Source: a virus. Taken from it: a stretch of DNA of 22,802 bases. Below the pieces are notes generated by a model. It was not told the origin of the DNA. It searched no databases and worked only from the letters and a program-made list of their open reading frames with translations. Made by a program: the position numbers and the translations under genes. Shown here one piece after another: positions 3,042-17,152 of the stretch; within the stretch, counting starts at the first letter, position 1, and every line of letters starts with the position of its first letter. The stretch is taken from positions 1 through 22,802 of IMG/VR virus record IMGVR_UViG_3300025030_000428. One strand, 5' to 3'.

Positions 3042-3518
3042 ATGCACTACGATTATACCCCGAAAGACGTAGAACGCTTCTGGTCAAAAGTTGACAAATC
3101 CGGCGGGCCTGACGCCTGTTGGAATTGGACGGCATACAAGGGAAGAAAAGGTTACGGGCGAATCGGATGGGGCGGGCCTGGATTACCGAAACTCTCTCAC
3201 CGAGTAGCCTATGAGATAGCTTTCGGAGAATTTCCAGAAGAACAGCAGGTTCTACATCGCTGCGATAATCCGTCTTGCGTGAATCCGTCCCATTTGTTTT
3301 TGGGCACGAATCGAGACAATGTGAATGATCGGCAGCGAAAAGGCAGGAACAATCCCCAACGCGGCGAGCGGAATGGGAATCACAAATTAACAGATATGCA
3401 GGTAGATGAAATCCGCCAACGCTACTCAAATGGCGAGACACGCTTTGAGTTAGCGAAAGTGTTTGGTGTTCACCATACGCAAATCTGGAATATTGTGAAA
3501 CGCAGACAGCGCGTCTGA
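3042..3518 (+). CDS. HNH homing endonuclease (free-standing)
   Basis: This is the only convincing plus-strand gene. The 158-residue product has the HNH_3-type layout. The N-terminal FWSKVDKSGGPDACWNWT leads to LSHRVAYEIAFG and then the HNH core VLHRCDNPSCVNPSHLFLGT, residues 70-89, with His72, Asn81 and His84 and Cys pairs that may bind zinc. The C-terminal KLTDMQVDEIRQRY...FELAKVFGVHHTQIWNIVKRR (about 115-155) looks like a helix-turn-helix DNA-binding region. Such enzymes cut a specific site in phage DNA and spread their own gene by repair. GGGAGG lies at normal spacing before the ATG. The gene sits between the tail chaperones and the tape measure, on the opposite strand to both, with its own promoter and terminator. 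It looks intact and is AT-richer than the flanking tail genes. Confidence 0.93.
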   Translation: MHYDYTPKDVERFWSKVDKSGGPDACWNWTAYKGRKGYGRIGWGGPGLPKLSHRVAYEIAFGEFPEEQQVLHRCDNPSCVNPSHLFLGTNRDNVNDRQRKGRNNPQRGERNGNHKLTDMQVDEIRQRYSNGETRFELAKVFGVHHTQIWNIVKRRQRV

Positions 3519-4264: not shown

Positions 4265-4713
4265 GTCATGACCCGGCGCGGCTTCCCTTTACCGGCGCGT
4301 TTTTTCGGGAGGTACTTGCCGACCTTCGCTTGCCGGGCCTGCTGAACAAACGGCGTAATGCCCTCAAAGAACTGCTGGATCATGTCTAACCCCAGCGTGC
4401 CATCGAAGGCTTTTTGGGACGTGCCCGCGCCAAACAAGCGATCAATCTGCCCATACACGTACTCGCAGATGTCACGCATGAAGGCGATCCGGTCCGCCAT
4501 ATTGACAGGCAGGCCGATAGTGTCTACCGCCGTCACCTGGTCAATGACCTCGGCGCGCTTTTCGTACTCCGCCAGTTTGATCTCAAAGTCGCGCGTCAGG
4601 TCATAGTAGCGCTCGGCAAATTGAATATCCGAGGGATTGAAGACAATTACCCGGTCAGGATCATCGTTGACGGCGATGCGCTTGATACCGGAATCAATCT
4701 TGATACTGTCCAT
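4261..4713 (-). CDS. Tail module protein next to Gp15, probable chaperone (DUF6673-like)
   Basis: The 150-residue product begins MDSIKIDSGIKRIAVNDD and contains long helical stretches (FAERYYDLTRDFEIKLAEYEKRAE) with a basic tail ending KRAGKGKPRRVMT. In related Firmicutes phages a protein of this size, with a similar start and helical core, lies between the tail tube gene and the Gp15 gene. I recall it as DUF6673, but this should be treated as tentative. Its place immediately after the tail tube and before Gp15 suggests a tail assembly chaperone role. The start codon shares one base with the upstream stop (TAATG) and the stop overlaps the Gp15 start by four bases, so the three genes are tightly coupled. 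No enzymatic motif is visible. Confidence 0.75.
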   Translation of the reverse strand: MDSIKIDSGIKRIAVNDDPDRVIVFNPSDIQFAERYYDLTRDFEIKLAEYEKRAEVIDQVTAVDTIGLPVNMADRIAFMRDICEYVYGQIDRLFGAGTSQKAFDGTLGLDMIQQFFEGITPFVQQARQAKVGKYLPKKRAGKGKPRRVMT

Positions 4714-5483
4714 TACGCCGCCGCCCTGGTGATGTCAATCATATAAACAACGTTTTCAGTGCCCACCGTGACATCAATGGAGAGGTGATTCACGCCAACA
4801 GCTAGTGAGGCCGTCGCGCCTTGCAACACTTCCGCCGCCTCGTCGTACTGCACGATGGTTGCGCCTGAAAGCGTGCTGTCCATCTGAGCCGTCGTTACGC
4901 CGTTCGCCACACTCCCGGCATACCACAACCAGGATTTGTCGGTAGCGAACAACGGTGTCAGGGTCACAGAGCCGATGACCATCGTCGTCAGAATAGTGTC
5001 GATAGCCAGCGCGACAAATTCCGATCCGGTTGGGCTAAAGCCACCCTTCACCGGATCGCCTACGTAATTGATCGTGTACCCGATTTTGGCCGACGTGTTG
5101 CCCGGCCCGCCAAACTTATCCACCTGCACGCTGACGGCGACCTTTTCAGCAGCGTAGTATCCGAGGGCGGGCGTCTCAAACAGCCATACATTGACAATTT
5201 CGGTTTCTGCGTCCTCCAGTACATCGCGGCCCTGCCGGGTGGCATCAATCCAGTCAAAGACAGCATCACCCGCTATCGCCGTCGCCTCAATTGCCATCGT
5301 CGGCGCGTAGGACTCGACGCTGATGGTCGCGTTGTCATCCGCGATGTACGTCTCTTCAGACGTTTTGGGATTCATCGCTACTTCAGCCTCCGGGATACCC
5401 GCGCTGATCAGCGACCAAACGGGCGTGCCAACCGTGCCCGTGTTGAGAAAACTCTTGAACTGGCTGCGCTTGATTTTAGCCAT
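4713..5483 (-). CDS. Major tail (tube) protein with C-terminal Ig/cadherin-like domain
   Basis: The 256-residue product has two parts. Residues 1-160 are clearly paralogous to the upstream gene, with shared blocks MAKIKRS, MNPKTSEETYI, ISVESYAPTM, DAET-IVNVW and QVD-FGGPG. They form the presumed tube domain. Residues 165-256 (SVTLTPLFATDKSWLWYAGS through NVVYMIDITRAAA) read like the cadherin-like beta-sandwich domain family (PF12733), a surface decoration found on many phage tail tubes. The gene starts one base into the previous stop (TAATG). A tube subunit with an extra Ig-like domain is well known in lambda gpV and in the frameshifted long form of SPP1 gp17.1. Here the long form is a separate gene. 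Which paralogue forms most of the tube cannot be told from sequence. Confidence 0.88.
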   Translation of the reverse strand: MAKIKRSQFKSFLNTGTVGTPVWSLISAGIPEAEVAMNPKTSEETYIADDNATISVESYAPTMAIEATAIAGDAVFDWIDATRQGRDVLEDAETEIVNVWLFETPALGYYAAEKVAVSVQVDKFGGPGNTSAKIGYTINYVGDPVKGGFSPTGSEFVALAIDTILTTMVIGSVTLTPLFATDKSWLWYAGSVANGVTTAQMDSTLSGATIVQYDEAAEVLQGATASLAVGVNHLSIDVTVGTENVVYMIDITRAAA

Positions 5484-5950
5484 TACGTGAACGCTTTCGT
5501 GCCCGTGTTGAACGTGCCCGTTACCGGATCGCCCTGGTAGTTAATGGTGACTTTCAGCTTGACCGCTTGACCGCCGGGGCCGCCAAAAGCGTCCACCTGA
5601 ATACTCACGGCCTGCTGCTCTGCCGGGGCCGCGCTCGGACCGCCCGACTCGTAATTCCACACGTTGACGATGGTCGTTTCGGCGTCCCCCAACACGGCCC
5701 GGTTTTTACGCAGACCGTCCAGGAACTCAAACACTTCGTCGCCATTATGCGCCGTGATTTCGAGCGGCATGGTGGGCGCGTATGATTCGACACTGATCCG
5801 GGCATTATCTTCGTGGATGTACGTCTCTTCAGACGTTTTCGGATTCATGCTGACTTCACCCTCAATGACCCCTACTCCCAACAGGTAATAGGTTCCATCG
5901 CCTACAGTGTCAATGTAGGTCAAAAACTCACTGCGTTTAATCTTTGCCAT
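5483..5950 (-). CDS. Major tail (tube) protein, short paralogue
   Basis: This 155-residue protein corresponds to the tube domain of the gene that follows it and lacks the C-terminal beta-sandwich. Shared blocks run from the first residues (MAKIKRS) to NYQGDPV near residue 140, so the two genes arose by tandem duplication. A near-perfect ribosome site AGGAGG with 5-base spacing precedes the ATG, the best seen among the tail genes, which fits high expression of a tube subunit. The SD overlaps the stop codon of the tail terminator gene. It is placed as expected between the tail terminator and the tail chaperones. It probably forms the plain tail tube subunit (inference). Confidence 0.88.
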   Translation of the reverse strand: MAKIKRSEFLTYIDTVGDGTYYLLGVGVIEGEVSMNPKTSEETYIHEDNARISVESYAPTMPLEITAHNGDEVFEFLDGLRKNRAVLGDAETTIVNVWNYESGGPSAAPAEQQAVSIQVDAFGGPGGQAVKLKVTINYQGDPVTGTFNTGTKAFT

Positions 5951-7184: not shown

Positions 7185-7190
7185 CTACAC
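7173..7190 (-). repeat. Near-repeat flanking GIY-YIG gene, downstream copy
   Basis: GTGTAGATGCGCACAAAT on the minus strand spans the endonuclease stop and the start of the next gene. It matches the copy at 7857-7875 at 15 positions with one gap. It may be a target duplication left by insertion, or a repaired gene start. Confidence 0.55.
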
Positions 7191-7868
7191 CTTTTGGCCT
7201 TTTGAACGTCGCCGTTCCCATGCTTCGCGCATTTTCTGTTTAGTTTCTTCCGAGTGAACAAATCCAGTTACAGAGGCGCTTATCTTTTGACGGTATTCAT
7301 CAGAAGACCATCGTTCTTTTGTTTTTGCACCGATCTTGGCTTTGTGCTCTTCGGAAAACTCCACGCCTTTATGGGCCTTACTCATCTTCCTGCGTGATTC
7401 CTCAGAAGGAATAATGCCCCTGACCGCTTCGGCGTGTTTCCTGATTTCTTCCTCGGACTTCTTCCTTCCCTTATTGCCCGCGCTTATCTTTCGGCGAGAT
7501 TCTTCTGAATGCCTTTTACCTTGTGACGCCTTCGACATCTTTGCCTTTACTTCGGCAGACCACACCCTGCCCAGATTAGGGGCGTATGCATTAAACGTGA
7601 TGTTATAGTCAGTCCTCATCCCGTTCAGACACGCCTGTTCGTAAAACAACGTCATGTCTCGATCACAATACAGGAGCGCGCGAAAAGCAAAGACTTCGCC
7701 GCCATACTTATTCCAGGCACTTTGCAGATGAGGATTGTCATGCGTCTGATTGTTCAGGTTTCTTTTGTGAAGCCTGAAACGATCTGGAATATTCACACTG
7801 CTGCCAATATAACGATGATTATTGACAGTGTTGCGAATTTCATAGACGCCGCATTTATTCGTCCTCAT
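7185..7868 (-). CDS. GIY-YIG homing endonuclease 1 with NUMOD3 repeats
   Basis: The 227-residue product starts CGVYEIRNTVNNHRYIGSS, the GIY-YIG nuclease signature. The catalytic arginine region follows (DRFRLHK), then HLQSAWNKYG and the glutamate in FYEQACLNG near residue 77. Residues 105-225 carry several copies of the NUMOD3-like motif (SEESRRKISAG, SEESRRKMSKAHKG, SEEHKAKIGAK, SEETKQKM), which binds DNA. The enzyme would nick or cut a target in related phages lacking the gene. The start overlaps the end of the head-tail connector gene by 14 bases. GGGAG in that gene is its ribosome site. The stop is directly followed by the next ATG. It is intact and AT-richer than its neighbours. The nearly repeated DNA at its two ends suggests a precise insertion. 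Confidence 0.95.
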   Translation of the reverse strand: MRTNKCGVYEIRNTVNNHRYIGSSVNIPDRFRLHKRNLNNQTHDNPHLQSAWNKYGGEVFAFRALLYCDRDMTLFYEQACLNGMRTDYNITFNAYAPNLGRVWSAEVKAKMSKASQGKRHSEESRRKISAGNKGRKKSEEEIRKHAEAVRGIIPSEESRRKMSKAHKGVEFSEEHKAKIGAKTKERWSSDEYRQKISASVTGFVHSEETKQKMREAWERRRSKGQKV

Positions 7869-10943: not shown

Positions 10944-11036
10944 CCTGTTCCCTCTTCTCTGCGGTTTGCGTCTACGCTTTTAACGTGGTGGCTTCACGAG
11001 ACGCCCGGCCTTTGTACGCTGGCCGATGGCAATGGT

Positions 11037-12155
11037 TTATGCGAAAACTTGCTCGCGGAATCGTTGACGTTGTAATTTTGTTTGAGCAATAAAACGTTTC
11101 ATTTCAGTTTTCCACGCCTTGACTTTGGCGCTCTCACGCTCTGTGCTCAAACCTGCTGCGATCAAGGCGTTTTCGCGCCGCGTCCATTGACGTATCTGGC
11201 GCTCAATTGCGCGCTGTTTCTGCGTGGCGTCGTAAAAACTCATTTCTTGACCGTTATAAGTAACTTTTTTATCTGCGTAATTCTCTAATTCGGCCTGTTT
11301 GTAATGTTCTGCCGAAATGCCCTCGAAAAAAGGGAACCACGAATGACGGCAGCCCCAACCCATCAGCCCCGGCCCCGTGCCGTAGCCTGTGCTGGTCACG
11401 AAATCGGGATATTTCGCGTGCGTTCCCGAACGGCTGAAGATTTCGCCCTGCCATACCTGGTGTGTAGGCCGCGCGCCGATGTGGGCTGACACTTGCACGA
11501 GGTCTGCGCCTAAGTCATCCGCCCGGCGCTCTTGCAGCTTGCCGACGGTCTGCGATACACCCGTGAGCACCGTCCGGCGCAGGGCTACGTCAAGGTGATC
11601 GCTGTGTCCGCTGGCGTAATTGATAACCGATAGTCCGCTGTCGGCCAGTTTCATGACGCCCTGCCGCAGCGCATCTTGATACGAAAAAGTGCCCGTAGAA
11701 ATCTGTAAATAAGCAAAGTCCGCCGCGTCTATAAAAGCGGTCTGCGCCTGAATCGCTCTCGTCATCGTCAGGTTCCGCATGATCCCTTGCGTTTTCGCCA
11801 GCCCCGCCGCCAGCGTCTGCGCCATTGCGGGGGACAGGTTCAGGGGGAGCGGATTCAGCCCGGCGGCGCGATAGATCGCATCGTCAAATCGCATAGCCTT
11901 AACCCCGGCCTCCTGAAAAATAGCGCGCAATTCCTTTTCGCTTTTCCCGGTCACTTGTGCCAGCTTTTCAAGCACCGAGTCGTACAGCGCGCCGGATTCG
12001 GTGAGACGTTGCATTTGCCATGCCGCCGCGTCAAGCTCTTTCGCAGTCATTTTTTTGAGACGGCGTGCCATGTCGGTGATTACGCTGTCCTCCAACTGAT
12101 AAAAGAGGTCCAGGATCGGATCGGCCAACACGTCCAGGAAATCAGGAGGTAGCAT
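11037..12155 (-). CDS. Head morphogenesis protein (Phage_min_cap2)
   Basis: The 372-residue product belongs by pattern to the Phage_min_cap2 family (PF06152), minor head proteins following the portal in A118-like phages. It has an alpha-helical N-terminal half (residues 1-210) and a conserved C-terminal region. In that region VSAHIGARPTHQVWQGEIFS (about residues 220-240) leads to STGYGTGPGLMGWGCRHSWF, followed by a basic helical tail. The role is thought to be in head assembly or DNA ejection. The start overlaps the end of the GIY-YIG gene by 14 bases. Its ribosome site is weak (AAGAGAAG), so translation may depend on coupling. No truncation is visible. Confidence 0.88.
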   Translation of the reverse strand: MLPPDFLDVLADPILDLFYQLEDSVITDMARRLKKMTAKELDAAAWQMQRLTESGALYDSVLEKLAQVTGKSEKELRAIFQEAGVKAMRFDDAIYRAAGLNPLPLNLSPAMAQTLAAGLAKTQGIMRNLTMTRAIQAQTAFIDAADFAYLQISTGTFSYQDALRQGVMKLADSGLSVINYASGHSDHLDVALRRTVLTGVSQTVGKLQERRADDLGADLVQVSAHIGARPTHQVWQGEIFSRSGTHAKYPDFVTSTGYGTGPGLMGWGCRHSWFPFFEGISAEHYKQAELENYADKKVTYNGQEMSFYDATQKQRAIERQIRQWTRRENALIAAGLSTERESAKVKAWKTEMKRFIAQTKLQRQRFREQVFA

Positions 12156-12756
12156 GACGCTTCTCTTCCCAGTATTTCTTTCGGGCCGCGCTCATCTTGC
12201 GCTTTGTTTCTTCGCTGTGTGGTTTGCGCTTCTGTCCTCTCTGCCGCTCAGAAATAGCCCGCTTTTGCTCATCGGTTAATTTGCGCCCAACGCCTCGACC
12301 CGGCCTGCCCTTGCAAGATTCCGAGTACCGCGCGCGCGCCTCATCGGACCATTTTTTCCCGGTTTTGTTTTTTGACATTAGACGCTTTGTATCTTCGGTA
12401 TGTCTGTAGCCCAATGAGTATTGATTTCCTTGATTGGCAAGGCTAATTTTAGACCTGGTTTCCTCAGTCATTTCAACTTTTCCGGCTATGCTACTGCTGT
12501 TGTATTCTGGCATTAGCCCGTCCAGGCAAAGTTGCTCAAAGAAAAGTGTCGTGTCTGGGTCGCAATACAAAAGCGGTTTAAATTCAAAATTCTCTTCACC
12601 GTAAAGATTCCAAGCGTTTTGCAGATGAGAATTTTTGTGCCGATGCCCACGCAAATCACATTTGTGCTCACGCCAGCGTTTTTCAAGATCAATACTGCTG
12701 CCAATGTACTTTTTGCCGTTGGACGTGTTGACAATTTTGTATACACCGATTGACAT
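12142..12756 (-). CDS. GIY-YIG homing endonuclease 2 with NUMOD3 repeats
   Basis: The 204-residue product starts SIGVYKIVNTSNGKKYIGSS, followed by the catalytic arginine in KRWREHK, HLQNAWNLYGEENFEF and the catalytic glutamate in LFFEQLCLDG near residue 74. NUMOD3-type motifs fill the C-terminal half (TEETRSKISLANQG, TEDTKRLMSKNKTG, SDEARARYSESCKG, TDEQKRAISERQRG, SEETKRKMSAARKK). It is a paralogue of the other two GIY-YIG genes and looks intact. It is inserted exactly between portal and head morphogenesis genes. The ATG shares one base with the portal stop (TAATG), and its end overlaps the next gene by 14 bases. A sampled stretch (12421-12480) has 37% GC, far below the portal gene beside it. 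Confidence 0.95.
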   Translation of the reverse strand: MSIGVYKIVNTSNGKKYIGSSIDLEKRWREHKCDLRGHRHKNSHLQNAWNLYGEENFEFKPLLYCDPDTTLFFEQLCLDGLMPEYNSSSIAGKVEMTEETRSKISLANQGNQYSLGYRHTEDTKRLMSKNKTGKKWSDEARARYSESCKGRPGRGVGRKLTDEQKRAISERQRGQKRKPHSEETKRKMSAARKKYWEEKRHATS

Positions 12757-14165
12757 TAAGCACCGCTCTCGGAACCGAAAAAGTCCGCAGGCTGTTCGGC
12801 TTGCTTCATTTCAACCCACTTTTTGGCCTCGTTCTCTGGCAGGCCGTAGTTTCGCATCAAAAAGATAACCAGCGGCATGGCCCCCATGCCTACCGCCCGC
12901 GCGTCCTGCGTAAAGCGCGCCTCGCTGTCCACGATCAGGCTATCATCAAAATCATACGCGACCTGGTACGTGCCCGCCGGAGCCAGCGCGTTCAACGTCG
13001 CCCATACGTCCATCGCGTACAGCAGGTCATTCAGCGCGGTTTCGAGCGCCTTTTGTGTGTCGGTGATGGTCGCCTGAGATCGCTGCTTGCTGGCGGCGAT
13101 CTCCGTCGCGGTTTTGGCGACAATCTGCGGATCGCACAGCGTCCCAAACGCCAGCCCGCACAGAAATTCGATGCGCTCCAACATCGTCTGAAGTGCGGCC
13201 CACTGCTCGACCTGGCGCAGCGTGGGCGTCCAGTCCTCAAACAGCGTTTCGTCGGCGATACTGCCGCCCGCGTTCAGCGTGCGATACAGGCGTTTGTCAG
13301 GCAGGATCGGCTTACCGTTGGCGTCCTTGCCGAACGCCAGTTCATCCACGTACAACGCCCGCTCGCCGCTTTCAAACTCCCACAGGTAACGCGACCACTG
13401 GCGATCCGCCTGTTCAATCGGCCCGACGGCGCGGCTGTAGCAGGAGACGCCCAACGGCGAAGACGGGTCAACATTATTCGCCAGCGGAAAGCGGAAATAA
13501 GCGAAGAGCGGCTTTTCAATGCCCAGGATAGTCGCTTCCGGTTGCAGATTGGCCCACGCCTCTACCGCGCCCAATTCGACGGGCTGCCCCAGGTCGTTTG
13601 GCCCGTTCCCGCGAAAGGCCCGGTTACGAATCACGCAGCCGTCCGGCGTCATCTGGTGCAGTTCCAGGCGCGTGTAGGTGTACGATCCGACCTGACGTTG
13701 ATCAGCAAAGATACAGGCCGTGATGTGCCCGTTGGCGTCAAACGTGACCGGGTAAAATTGATCGGCCTGCACAAAATCCACGAGGATCGCGCCGTTACTC
13801 GGATAGGGCTTGAGCATCAGCCCGCCTTTGGCCGCGCCCACTTCCACCTTTGCGCGCAACCGGGTCAACACGGGCTGAAGCTGGGCCGCCAGATAATCGG
13901 CGCGCGGACCGCCCGACAAATTAACCGCCATTTCAATTGTCACGGCGCGGGCGATCTCGCTGGCAATCGCGGCGGAGAGGTTCAGGCTGTGGATGTTCGT
14001 GCCTAACCACGTCGCTTTGTTTTCGTACATCAGCGACCACGTTTGCAGCGCGTCTACCATGCCCGAAGACAACGCCACGTCAACCCGCAGGTGATCTTTA
14101 ATGGCAGCAGGGCCGATCATGCGCCGGATAGCCTCCCGAATCCACGTAACCAGTCGCGTAAACAC
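12756..14165 (-). CDS. Portal protein (SPP1 Gp6-like)
   Basis: The 469-residue product has the general sequence course of SPP1-type portals (PF05133): an amphipathic start FTRLVTWIREAIRRMIGP, then YENKATWLG, VEVGAAKGGLMLKPY near residue 110, VDFVQADQFYPVTFDANGHI, a long central part, IEQADRQWSRYLWEFESGER and the C-terminal helical region KTATEIAASKQRSQATITDT. Portals form the dodecameric ring through which the terminase pumps DNA. The start is GTG at 14165 with no clear ribosome site. The N-terminal sequence matches the family from the first residues, so this start is preferred over an internal ATG at codon 16 that has GGGAGG upstream. The gene lies after the terminase block and before the head genes, as usual. 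Confidence 0.9.
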   Translation of the reverse strand: MFTRLVTWIREAIRRMIGPAAIKDHLRVDVALSSGMVDALQTWSLMYENKATWLGTNIHSLNLSAAIASEIARAVTIEMAVNLSGGPRADYLAAQLQPVLTRLRAKVEVGAAKGGLMLKPYPSNGAILVDFVQADQFYPVTFDANGHITACIFADQRQVGSYTYTRLELHQMTPDGCVIRNRAFRGNGPNDLGQPVELGAVEAWANLQPEATILGIEKPLFAYFRFPLANNVDPSSPLGVSCYSRAVGPIEQADRQWSRYLWEFESGERALYVDELAFGKDANGKPILPDKRLYRTLNAGGSIADETLFEDWTPTLRQVEQWAALQTMLERIEFLCGLAFGTLCDPQIVAKTATEIAASKQRSQATITDTQKALETALNDLLYAMDVWATLNALAPAGTYQVAYDFDDSLIVDSEARFTQDARAVGMGAMPLVIFLMRNYGLPENEAKKWVEMKQAEQPADFFGSESGA

Positions 14166-14546: not shown

Positions 14547-15197
14547 CTACTCCTGTTCTGTATCGGCGTATCGCCAGATAAAACCGCCTGCTGTGGGTCG
14601 TTTCCCCTTACAACATCTCACAATGGACTGATTATTGACGCCAGTTGCGCGTTGAGCATCCATGATGCTTTCATAAATATTTAACACTGTGCCGTCTCTG
14701 GAAAGTTGCAAAACGGCCTTGTCTGACCAGCCGCGATATTTTCCTGTAGTAGCCGCACTCATTTTCCGCTTGGTTACTTCGCTGATGATCGTGCCCTTGT
14801 GCGTATCGCTTAACTTTTGGCGCGTCTCCTCAGACGGGCGAATCCCAATGTGGCTTCTGGCTATCTTCTGCTTAGTTTCTTCTGTTCGCTTCTGTCCCAG
14901 GTGATTTAAAACCGAATTGGACAGAACGTTATACTCAGGCTTGCATCGATCAATAAAGCCTTGCTCTATCCCAACAAGGGCGTTCAAATCTTGTACTTCC
15001 ATTAAAACAACGAATGAAAAGACCGATTCCCCGTATTTATTCCATGCGTTCTGCAAATGCCGGGAATGATGTTTATTTTTCTTGAGTTCGTTGATATGGC
15101 GTTTCCATCGGTACGGCATATTGACAGCGGACCCAATATACTGATGTCCGTTGGTGGTGTTTACAATAGCGTAGATACCAGAAAGGGGGGCAGACAT
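14547..15197 (-). CDS. GIY-YIG homing endonuclease 3 with NUMOD1 domain
   Basis: The 216-residue product starts SAPLSGIYAIVNTTNGHQYI with the GIY-YIG signature. The arginine is in PYRWKRHI, followed by HLQNAWNKYGESVFSF and the likely catalytic glutamate in VGIEQGFIDR. NUMOD3-like motifs follow (TEETKQKIARSHIG, SEETRQKLSDTHKG), and then a C-terminal NUMOD1-type unit (VLQLSRDGTVLNIYESIMDA to GGFIWRYAD, about residues 160-212) that differs from the other two endonucleases. ATG 15197 is preferred because AGGAG lies nine bases upstream. The frame is also open to an ATG at 15362 that overlaps the terminase stop in an ATGA arrangement, but the extra 55 residues look non-coding and cover a structured leader. 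The gene is intact and separates terminase from the small beta-rich protein. Confidence 0.93.
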   Translation of the reverse strand: MSAPLSGIYAIVNTTNGHQYIGSAVNMPYRWKRHINELKKNKHHSRHLQNAWNKYGESVFSFVVLMEVQDLNALVGIEQGFIDRCKPEYNVLSNSVLNHLGQKRTEETKQKIARSHIGIRPSEETRQKLSDTHKGTIISEVTKRKMSAATTGKYRGWSDKAVLQLSRDGTVLNIYESIMDAQRATGVNNQSIVRCCKGKRPTAGGFIWRYADTEQE

Positions 15198-15214
15198 AAC
15201 AAAGCGCTCCTGTC

Positions 15215-15357
15215 GTATATGCTGCCATTGCTGAGATGAACAGCGGGACGCGAGTCCACACGACAAGAGCGTTTTGGGCACAATCTGGTTATGCAGAAAG
15301 GCAGCGTTTGAAATACAAAACGCCCCGTATCTGTTCATCTCAGCGCCCACAGTATAC
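15215..15357 (-). ncRNA. Structured leader RNA candidate between terminase and GIY-YIG 3
   Basis: A perfect 14-bp inverted repeat, GCTGAGATGAACAG with CTGTTCATCTCAGC (15344-15331 and 15243-15230), encloses 87 bases. Outside it CTG/CAG (15352-15350 with 15224-15222) and GTATA/TATAC (15357-15353 with 15219-15215) extend the helix past an internal loop and a small bulge. Inside, GCGTTTTG can pair with CAAAACGC or, in a competing way, with a nearby CAAACGC, and GGAC...GTCC forms a small hairpin. A TATACT resembling a -10 lies at 15356-15351, so a transcript could begin at the helix. No known RNA family is recognised. It could be a regulatory leader, an intron remnant or an element of the endonuclease cassette. 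Confidence 0.5.
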
Positions 15358-15358
15358 C

Positions 15359-17152
15359 TCATTCTCCCCTACGCCGCCACTGAAGATTCGTCGCATAACG
15401 AATTGCAGAAATGGCATGATCGTTTCGGTCAGGAAAAGCGCTTATGATTTCGTCATCTTTGGTGCGCTCGTATTCATACGATAGAAACTCCTCAGCCGAG
15501 TATGGCGCGCGCTCATTATCTATGACTATGGATTTCTGACTTTGGAGCCATTTTATAGAATACAAAACGCTCGTCGGGCCTTTCTCTGCCCCGCGCGCCA
15601 TTGCGCCATAGGCTCTCAGATCGGCCACGCTTTTGGGTTCGGCGGAGTCGCAGATTAGTAGGTCCTCCGGTTTTAGACCGTATTCCACAAGCGCGTCCCA
15701 CAACAATTGGTTGCTGGTTTTCCAACGGCGTACCTCTCCAAAGACATAGAGGGTCAGGCGCGCTTTGTCGTAATGCACCCGGCTGTAATGTGCAGGATCG
15801 GGATAAAACCCAAAGTCCAGCCCGTGCATAACATGATCAAATTGAGCAATCTCTTCGTCGGTGATTTTGCGAACTGTGACGTTCTCGAAAACCATGCCGC
15901 CCGCCGAATTTGCATTGCCCATGTATTCATGGTCGTAAGCGTCAGGGTTTACATTTTTTAGGTGTTCGGCCTCATCTAAGAAAACTCTCCCTAGCCACTC
16001 TGTAGGCACTTCAAGGTAGGTAGAGAAATGCTGATATTGAGACAGCTTAGGTATCTTAATGTACCTATTGACCCAACTATTTTGGGTGCGGGGCGGATTG
16101 AACGACTTGAAAATAAAGGCGTCATCCGTGCCCCGAATGACCGACTGTTCAATCTTGCGAACCGATTCAGGTCCGGTAAACTGGTCTAACTCTTCCATCC
16201 AGAGAATAGAAATTGCCCCAAAAGACGGCTTTATTGATTTCAGCTTTCCAGGATCGTCAGCGCCACGAAAAAAGATTTTTTGCCCAGTGGGTTTGTATTC
16301 TATTTCGAGAGGTGACGTAGTGCTCTTAAATTGATCCGTTAGTCCCAGTTCGCCGATAGCCCAAATAAATTGGTTATACACGCTATCTCGTAAAGTATTT
16401 GCCACCTGCCGAACCGCCAGCGCGTGCATGTCTCGATTGTTGACCAACAGATACAATGTCACCAGACTCACAAAGCTCGATTTCGTGCTGCCGCGCCCGC
16501 CGAAAAACAGGTATTCAGTATGGCGTCTGTTTTTAATATCCCGATACACGTCCAGAAATGATTTCGCTACGGAACTGGCGGGAAGATCATAGGTATCCCC
16601 GCCCCCCATGCCGCCACGCCGATCCGTGAGTTCTACGCGCTCCTGGAACAGCCCCAGATGTTTACCCAGATGAACCAGGGCGTTTTGCTTGTTGTAGAGT
16701 TCAATCTCAAACCCATTACGCGGTGTGTCAGAAATCTTCTGAATCAAGCGTGAATACTGCGGGTCTATCAGTCTGTCAACATCAATCGCCACATGGCGAA
16801 CCAAATAACTCACGCGCTTGACGGGCTTTTCAGGATCGGTATTATCCTCAACTTCTACGGCGTCCAGAATGTCAGAGGTAGGCAGAGGATAAAATGTCCA
16901 TTCTTCTACCACCTTGTAAAACAAGCCAATGTTGGAGCGGGCGTGTTCGGCTAACTCCGATAGAACTTCATCCGCCTGCATGTGCTTCTCTTTGATCCGC
17001 GCTTTGATCTGAGCCGCAACACCAACATTCACCAACAGGCGCGGACCTTGCGTGTTCGGATCGGCATAATCGGCGCGCCGGGCCGCCTCAGTCGCATTCC
17101 AGCAGGTCAGGTATTCTTCGATAAATACGCGCTGTTTGTTGGTGAGAGTCAT
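15359..17152 (-). CDS. Terminase, small subunit fused to large subunit
   Basis: ATG 17152 opens a 597-residue protein. Residues 1-170 have the Terminase_2 small-subunit pattern: the helix-turn-helix start LTNKQRVFIEEYLTCWNATE, then EAARRADY, and the closing IELYNKQNALVHLGKHLGLF. After a Gly-rich linker (about 179-186) comes a complete large subunit (Terminase_3 type). Its ATPase has Walker A GGRGSTKS at 218-225 and Walker B ISILWMEE at 314-321. The RNase H-like nuclease has Asp446 in HGLDFGF, Asp502 in ICDSAEP and Asp578 in RNDHA. The enzyme recognises, cuts and pumps phage DNA into the head through the portal. Small and large subunits are normally separate genes, so the fusion is unusual. 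The start region is GC-rich and the large-subunit part is AT-richer. The upstream open frame before ATG 17152 looks non-coding. The ribosome site is weak (GGGG). Confidence 0.92.
   Translation of the reverse strand: MTLTNKQRVFIEEYLTCWNATEAARRADYADPNTQGPRLLVNVGVAAQIKARIKEKHMQADEVLSELAEHARSNIGLFYKVVEEWTFYPLPTSDILDAVEVEDNTDPEKPVKRVSYLVRHVAIDVDRLIDPQYSRLIQKISDTPRNGFEIELYNKQNALVHLGKHLGLFQERVELTDRRGGMGGGDTYDLPASSVAKSFLDVYRDIKNRRHTEYLFFGGRGSTKSSFVSLVTLYLLVNNRDMHALAVRQVANTLRDSVYNQFIWAIGELGLTDQFKSTTSPLEIEYKPTGQKIFFRGADDPGKLKSIKPSFGAISILWMEELDQFTGPESVRKIEQSVIRGTDDAFIFKSFNPPRTQNSWVNRYIKIPKLSQYQHFSTYLEVPTEWLGRVFLDEAEHLKNVNPDAYDHEYMGNANSAGGMVFENVTVRKITDEEIAQFDHVMHGLDFGFYPDPAHYSRVHYDKARLTLYVFGEVRRWKTSNQLLWDALVEYGLKPEDLLICDSAEPKSVADLRAYGAMARGAEKGPTSVLYSIKWLQSQKSIVIDNERAPYSAEEFLSYEYERTKDDEIISAFPDRNDHAISAIRYATNLQWRRRGE

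Follow-up and report, generated by a model that had tools for sequence, protein, structure and literature searches.

The terminases of phages SPP1 and SF6 are made from two genes, one for the small subunit (G1P) and one for the large subunit (G2P), and their small subunits form separate rings. Small-subunit rings hold 8-11 copies, whereas the motor is pentameric. The standard large subunit (TerL) of the PBSX/SPP1 type is likewise the product of its own gene, located downstream of the small-subunit gene. Thermus/Geobacillus phage phiOH2 and Brevibacillus phage Abouo have a Terminase_2-type small subunit and a TerL in this order, encoded by two genes that overlap by 14 bases in different frames. 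An in-frame addition of an extra DNA-binding domain is found in the Bacillus phages Sam46 and Sam112, in which an FtsK_gamma domain is joined to a Terminase_2 small subunit (PMC8190038).

We analysed a 22,802-nucleotide stretch of viral DNA (the whole of IMG/VR record IMGVR_UViG_3300025030_000428, hereafter the window), for which a first-pass annotation had proposed that both terminase subunits lie in a single protein. The gene order of the window is that of phiOH2 and Abouo, and its TerL part is 42% and 39% identical to theirs, respectively, but the two genes are fused. It also shares with Sam46 and Sam112 the presence of a DNA-binding domain in frame with a terminase subunit, but in those phages the joining involves the small subunit only and TerL is a separate gene.

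Results

A small and a large terminase in one reading frame

The fusion gene of the window encodes 597 amino acids on the minus strand (Table 1), while the plus strand across the same interval contains many stops. Pfam residue numbers were converted from a 630-amino-acid frame, whose start lies 33 residues upstream, by subtracting 33. In this numbering, Terminase_2 (PF03592) was matched at residues 3-176 over profile positions 1-138 of 141 (E 6e-23; 82.5 bits against a curated cut-off of 26.1), in agreement with the earlier placement of a small-subunit-like region at residues 1-170, and the remainder of the protein was matched by Terminase_3 (PF04466, E 1e-38) and Terminase_3C (PF17288, E 3e-10). 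The PHROGs and NCBIfam assignments gave the same picture. The window protein scored 146 bits with the PBSX-family model TIGR01547 (cut-off 105), and nine fused relatives were likewise above its curated cut-off; yet this NCBI model spans the large subunit only and leaves the fused head unregistered. Across 36 fused relatives, the Walker A motif (GGRGSTKS, residues 218-225), the acidic pair of Walker B (E320/E321) and the nuclease aspartates D446 and D502 vary little or not at all, and D575 is kept in 34 of the 36.

The structural comparisons led to the same assignment. A single profile built from 36-38 fused relatives matched a small subunit of the SF6 type (3zqp) at one end and the nuclease of the SPP1 large subunit (2wbn) at the other, and the family profile matched the heads of the small terminases 3zqp, 4zc3 and 2cmp in the PDB, with 3zqp covered up to chain residue 141. 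AlphaFold, run on an input from which two rows of deposited phage records had been removed, modelled the head with a pLDDT of about 90 (residues 1-50) and the TerL part confidently, whereas the core was of low confidence (pLDDT 44-68). The 3zqp profile match spans both head and core. The linker was predicted to be disordered (pLDDT <50 at residues 170-184). The Foldseek matches of the large subunit were Sf6 gp2, D6E TerL and SPP1 G2P, and the SPP1 G2P nuclease 2wc9 was superposed on the window nuclease with an rmsd of 1.8 over 173 columns. The nuclease (2wbn/2wc9) and small-subunit (3zqp, 2cmp) families of the SPP1/SF6 terminases are thus matched by sequence and fold, but within one gene. These results confirmed that the frame joins a near-complete Terminase_2 small terminase to a PBSX/SPP1-type large terminase with intact motor and nuclease motifs; the E-values and the recurrence of the architecture in more than 100 other contigs rule out a chance origin. 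The short Gly-rich linker noted earlier (RRGGMGGGD, about residues 178-187) does exist in the window, but most relatives do not have a Gly-rich sequence at this position.

Table 1. Positions of the terminase gene, its parts and other features in the window
Feature	Positions	Strand	Basis or remark
TerS-TerL fusion gene	15359-17152	-	597 aa; ATG start at 17152, TGA stop at 15359-15361
Predicted DNA-recognition head (residues 1-56), helix-turn-helix part of Terminase_2	16985-17152	-	PF03592, PDB profile matches, AlphaFold
Small-subunit core, oligomerisation-type part of Terminase_2, residues 57-176	16625-16984	-	PF03592 to profile position 138/141, 3zqp match
Linker, residues 177-190, Gly-rich, predicted disordered	16583-16624	-	low pLDDT; breakpoints of relatives here
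TerL ATPase (Terminase_3), residues 213-412	15917-16516	-	Pfam, fold match, motifs
Walker A motif	16478-16501	-	residues 218-225
Walker B motif	16190-16207	-	E320/E321
TerL RNase H-like nuclease (Terminase_3C), residues 446-587	15392-15817	-	Pfam, fold match, motifs; D446, D502, D575
GIY-YIG homing-type endonuclease gene	14547-15362	-	between terminase and portal genes, overlaps terminase stop codon; NUMOD motifs (Pfam)
Portal protein gene	12756-14165	-	Pfam/PHROGs context
GIY-YIG homing-type gene	12142-12756	-	NUMOD motifs (Pfam)
GP20-b RNA (RF03003)	10973-11031	-	Rfam, E 7e-8
GIY-YIG homing-type gene	7185-7868	-	
Adjoining ORFs with similar starts	4713-5483 and 5483-5950		MAKIKRSQF and MAKIKRSEF
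HNH-endonuclease-like ORF	3042-3518	+	by eye

Several other features of the locus were recorded. Three GIY-YIG homing-type genes lie between the structural genes, two of them with NUMOD motifs, and an HNH-endonuclease-like ORF runs opposite to the phage genes. In the related locus L051 (3731-6637), the fused terminase gene is itself split near Walker B. The insert is about 800 bases long and contains an HNH-like ORF (5094-5609), and Rfam gave no intron match for it. The GP20-b RNA lies in the gap that separates the minor head protein gene from the following ORF. The two adjoining ORFs with similar starts probably arose by duplication of a gene of the tail-tube type, and one of them has an additional domain at its C-terminus.

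The fusion in a clade of tailed phages

We then collected about 300 related loci from scans of viral contigs and genomes and constructed a FastTree phylogeny of 173 related large subunits, based on the large subunit alone. The window falls in a clade of 108 members (support 0.938), 105 of which are fused and carry an N-terminal in-frame module of about 75-300 amino acids. The three others are L156, which is cut by a contig end; L125, whose upstream frame is apparently broken and which looks like a frameshift or a secondary split; and L185 (2598-4227), the only locus of the fused clade in which a module of the same type adjoins TerL in a different frame, by either a sequence error or frameshift or a secondary split. 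Neither L185 nor L125 was counted as fused, and no intact member of the clade was found without an N-terminal module. L061, where an open frame precedes an unfused TerL by chance, was left out of the fused counts. Over the 173 sequences, the length of the extension before TerL is bimodal, with 10 residues or fewer in 31 and 75-300 in about 125.

Since the first scans had used the whole fused protein, a second scan was run with only the large subunit as query. Ranked in this manner, 75 of 80 loci were fused, and the other five comprised three contig ends, L125 and L185. Similarly, in 291 Clostridia species genomes, almost all matches above about 53% identity lay in frames of the fused length (506-657 amino acids), while those below about 51% identity were mostly in frames of 415-450 amino acids. 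Separate genes are the rule for phages in reference collections and for the more distant relatives, as had been expected, but not for the clade of the window, where the halves are joined in essentially all members. Fitch parsimony placed seven changes between the fused and unfused states on the whole tree, and fused groups outside the clade include L071, L246/L247, L040/L046 and the group of Blautia phage Montmirail. Within the clade of the window, the best reading is that the fusion is ancestral and was then retained.

These proteins are built from known families, and the databases already contain fused examples. Montmirail (WAK79252.1, ON453898) encodes a fused protein that the tree places in a second fused group, and the BFVD entry A0A8S5PD03 is also fused and in addition structurally matches the phrog_2412-type head described below; each is labelled only "terminase large subunit" and neither is annotated as a fusion. 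Our search of the open-access full-text literature found no description of the terminase fusion, its clade or the exchange of its heads, and no experimental work on any fused member.

Exchange of the head module at the linker

The head classes were defined by HMMs built on the first 90 residues. An initial single-linkage cluster of 102 heads, produced artificially by the linker helix that they share, was rejected, and a Terminase_2 HMM seeded with members that lie outside this family, L108 and L098 among them, was discarded. About 16 classes of fused module were distinguished, in part known small-terminase families and in part families of unknown function. They include the Terminase_2 class (44 modules), a phrog_2412-matching class (30) and a DUF5681-like class (PF18932; 16), and a class of eight, exemplified by L073 and L078, combines the Terminase_2 core with another head. 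Further fused classes include a PF10668-type small subunit, matches to the small terminases phrog_309/4044, phrog_645 and others, and the P22 gp3 family (PF16677) was seen in Clostridia genome loci. Profile-profile comparison of the head classes yielded no significant similarity except weak scores for the DUF5681-like classes N2/N3 and for N7/N8, in small alignments that do not prove an unrelated origin.

On the tree, the modules must change 33-37 times within the clade, also after the collapse of weakly supported nodes. In L202 and L105, the TerLs are 92% identical, and the heads are of the Terminase_2 and PF10668 types, respectively. Unlike heads on nearly equal TerLs also occur in L218/L220 (92%), L189/L205 (90%) and L059/L118 (86%). 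When the DNA identity was followed in 30-base steps, it was high throughout TerL and dropped to the chance level 30-90 bases upstream of the TerL start, and the module breakpoints of the relatives fall in the linker. In the L202/L105 pair, the conservation extends into about 30 residues of the linker helix. Since these residues are missing from the unfused TerLs, the common ancestor of L202 and L105 was already fused, and the head was replaced rather than newly joined. In our best reading of these sequences, the recognition head was exchanged by in-frame recombination at the linker while it was joined to the motor.

Module families and their standalone forms

Two of the unannotated module classes also occur as separate proteins beside TerL, at the very position expected of a small subunit. 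A standalone phrog_2412-type protein is encoded by ORF38 of Streptococcus phage EJ-1, annotated as "hypothetical", directly upstream of and overlapping the TerL gene, and its counterpart in Javan316 has the same position and overlap. The phrog_645-type protein, a family labelled "RNase E", is gene 1 of Gordonia phage Jace, directly upstream of TerL. For the DUF5681-type head of L007 searched alone, the phage collection yielded no match. The phrog_2412-type head was confidently modelled as all-helical; only one of 14 compared PDB chains matched it at Z of at least 2, with no clear counterpart among solved structures. In BFVD, it matched a "Terminase small subunit" weakly (E 0.07) and phage proteins that are uncharacterised more strongly. 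A protein of Eggerthella phage PMBT5, possibly its ORF1, was among the best structural matches of this module; the PMBT5 authors could predict no small subunit for ORF1 (PMC9394477). Because phrog_645, phrog_2412 and DUF5681 modules are fused to and placed beside TerL, their present labels are probably wrong or missing, and the families point to small terminases.

The phrog_2412 type is also carried by Streptococcus satellite phages, Javan248 (L401, 4001-4471) and Javan103 (L404, 4001-4483), as a standalone protein annotated "hypothetical"; in Javan103, another gene is also labelled terminase small subunit. Satellites elsewhere divert packaging with a small subunit of their own, which makes this occurrence suggestive, and the phrog_2412-type protein may be the small terminase of Javan248 and Javan103.

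One product or two

If the fused genes also produced a free TerL from an internal start in the linker, next to the full-length fusion, only a few heads would be present in the motor. We searched for ATG, GTG or TTG codons within -18 to +8 codons of the junction with a Shine-Dalgarno (SD) match of at least 4 bases. Such starts were found in 17 of 126 fused genes (13%), against 28 of 46 unfused ones (61%), and the fused value does not exceed the background at other internal positions of the same genes (5-23 of 126). Any start codon near the junction was present in 87 fused genes and absent from the remaining 39. An internal start, which the first-pass annotation had asked to be checked, is therefore not supported as a general feature of fused genes. 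The window itself has an ATG at codon 182, in the linker (GGMGGG), which would yield a TerL of normal size, and since the gene's own ATG has no clear SD sequence, the SD strength is not decisive for this phage. Taken together, a dual product is unlikely.

The N-terminal module might instead be a relic or an accessory, with the DNA recognised by another, unrecognised protein or packaged with no small subunit at all. Certain phages do package without a known small subunit, and in some relatives the module is from a family without a known function (DUF5681, phrog_2412) or from no family. However, the module of the window is a near-complete Terminase_2 domain, and in the clade the modules are replaced and not lost, with one in every intact member. 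Furthermore, when 2-6 kb flanks were searched with the module HMMs, a separate recognisable small-subunit ORF was detected near TerL in none of the 126 fused loci, as compared with 20 of the 46 unfused ones. The case against a second small subunit is strong but not complete, given these flank lengths and given that the window is a linear 22.8-kb record without end repeats. A relic or accessory module is thus quite improbable.

Post-translational cleavage would also restore separate subunits, and a disordered linker that is Gly-rich in the window could accommodate it, but the linker sequence varies among the relatives and no protease was identified, which makes cleavage very improbable. Finally, although the window is an assembled record and two contigs 100% identical to it begin inside the TerL part and leave the junction uncovered, an assembly or sequencing error that joined two genes, raised in the first-pass annotation, is excluded because more than 100 independent contigs, drawn from many samples, show the same in-frame architecture, as do Clostridia genomes and the sequenced isolate Montmirail.

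Discussion

We propose that the gene most probably encodes a single-polypeptide packaging terminase whose head has been exchanged in the linker. The full-length protein would be the working form, in which the small-subunit module at the N-terminus would recognise the site on the phage DNA where packaging starts and the C-terminal PBSX/SPP1-type ATPase-nuclease would cut the DNA and pump it through the portal. Because the head is joined to the motor, each motor subunit would bring its own head, in a presumed ratio of 1:1. The head has repeatedly been replaced by other modules that resemble small terminases and are mostly unrelated, probably by recombination within the linker. Two arrangements can be envisaged: the core may still drive the formation of a ring from which the TerLs hang, or the motor pentamer may carry five heads.

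How the small and large terminases combine, and in which ratio, is an old question in packaging, and a natural fusion allows it to be addressed directly with a single purified protein. Heads that change on a nearly constant motor show at which point the two parts can be separated and rejoined. In addition, a function would be assigned to several phage families without one, namely phrog_2412, DUF5681 and phrog_645; a phrog_2412-like protein is deposited from PMBT5, a phage whose authors could predict no small subunit (PMC9394477).

A broader proposal, which we advance tentatively and rate at somewhat less than an even chance, is that a whole clade of tailed phages packages its DNA without a separate small-subunit ring, that each motor subunit carries its own exchangeable head, and that phages, and perhaps satellites, change their packaging-site specificity by swapping one end of a gene.
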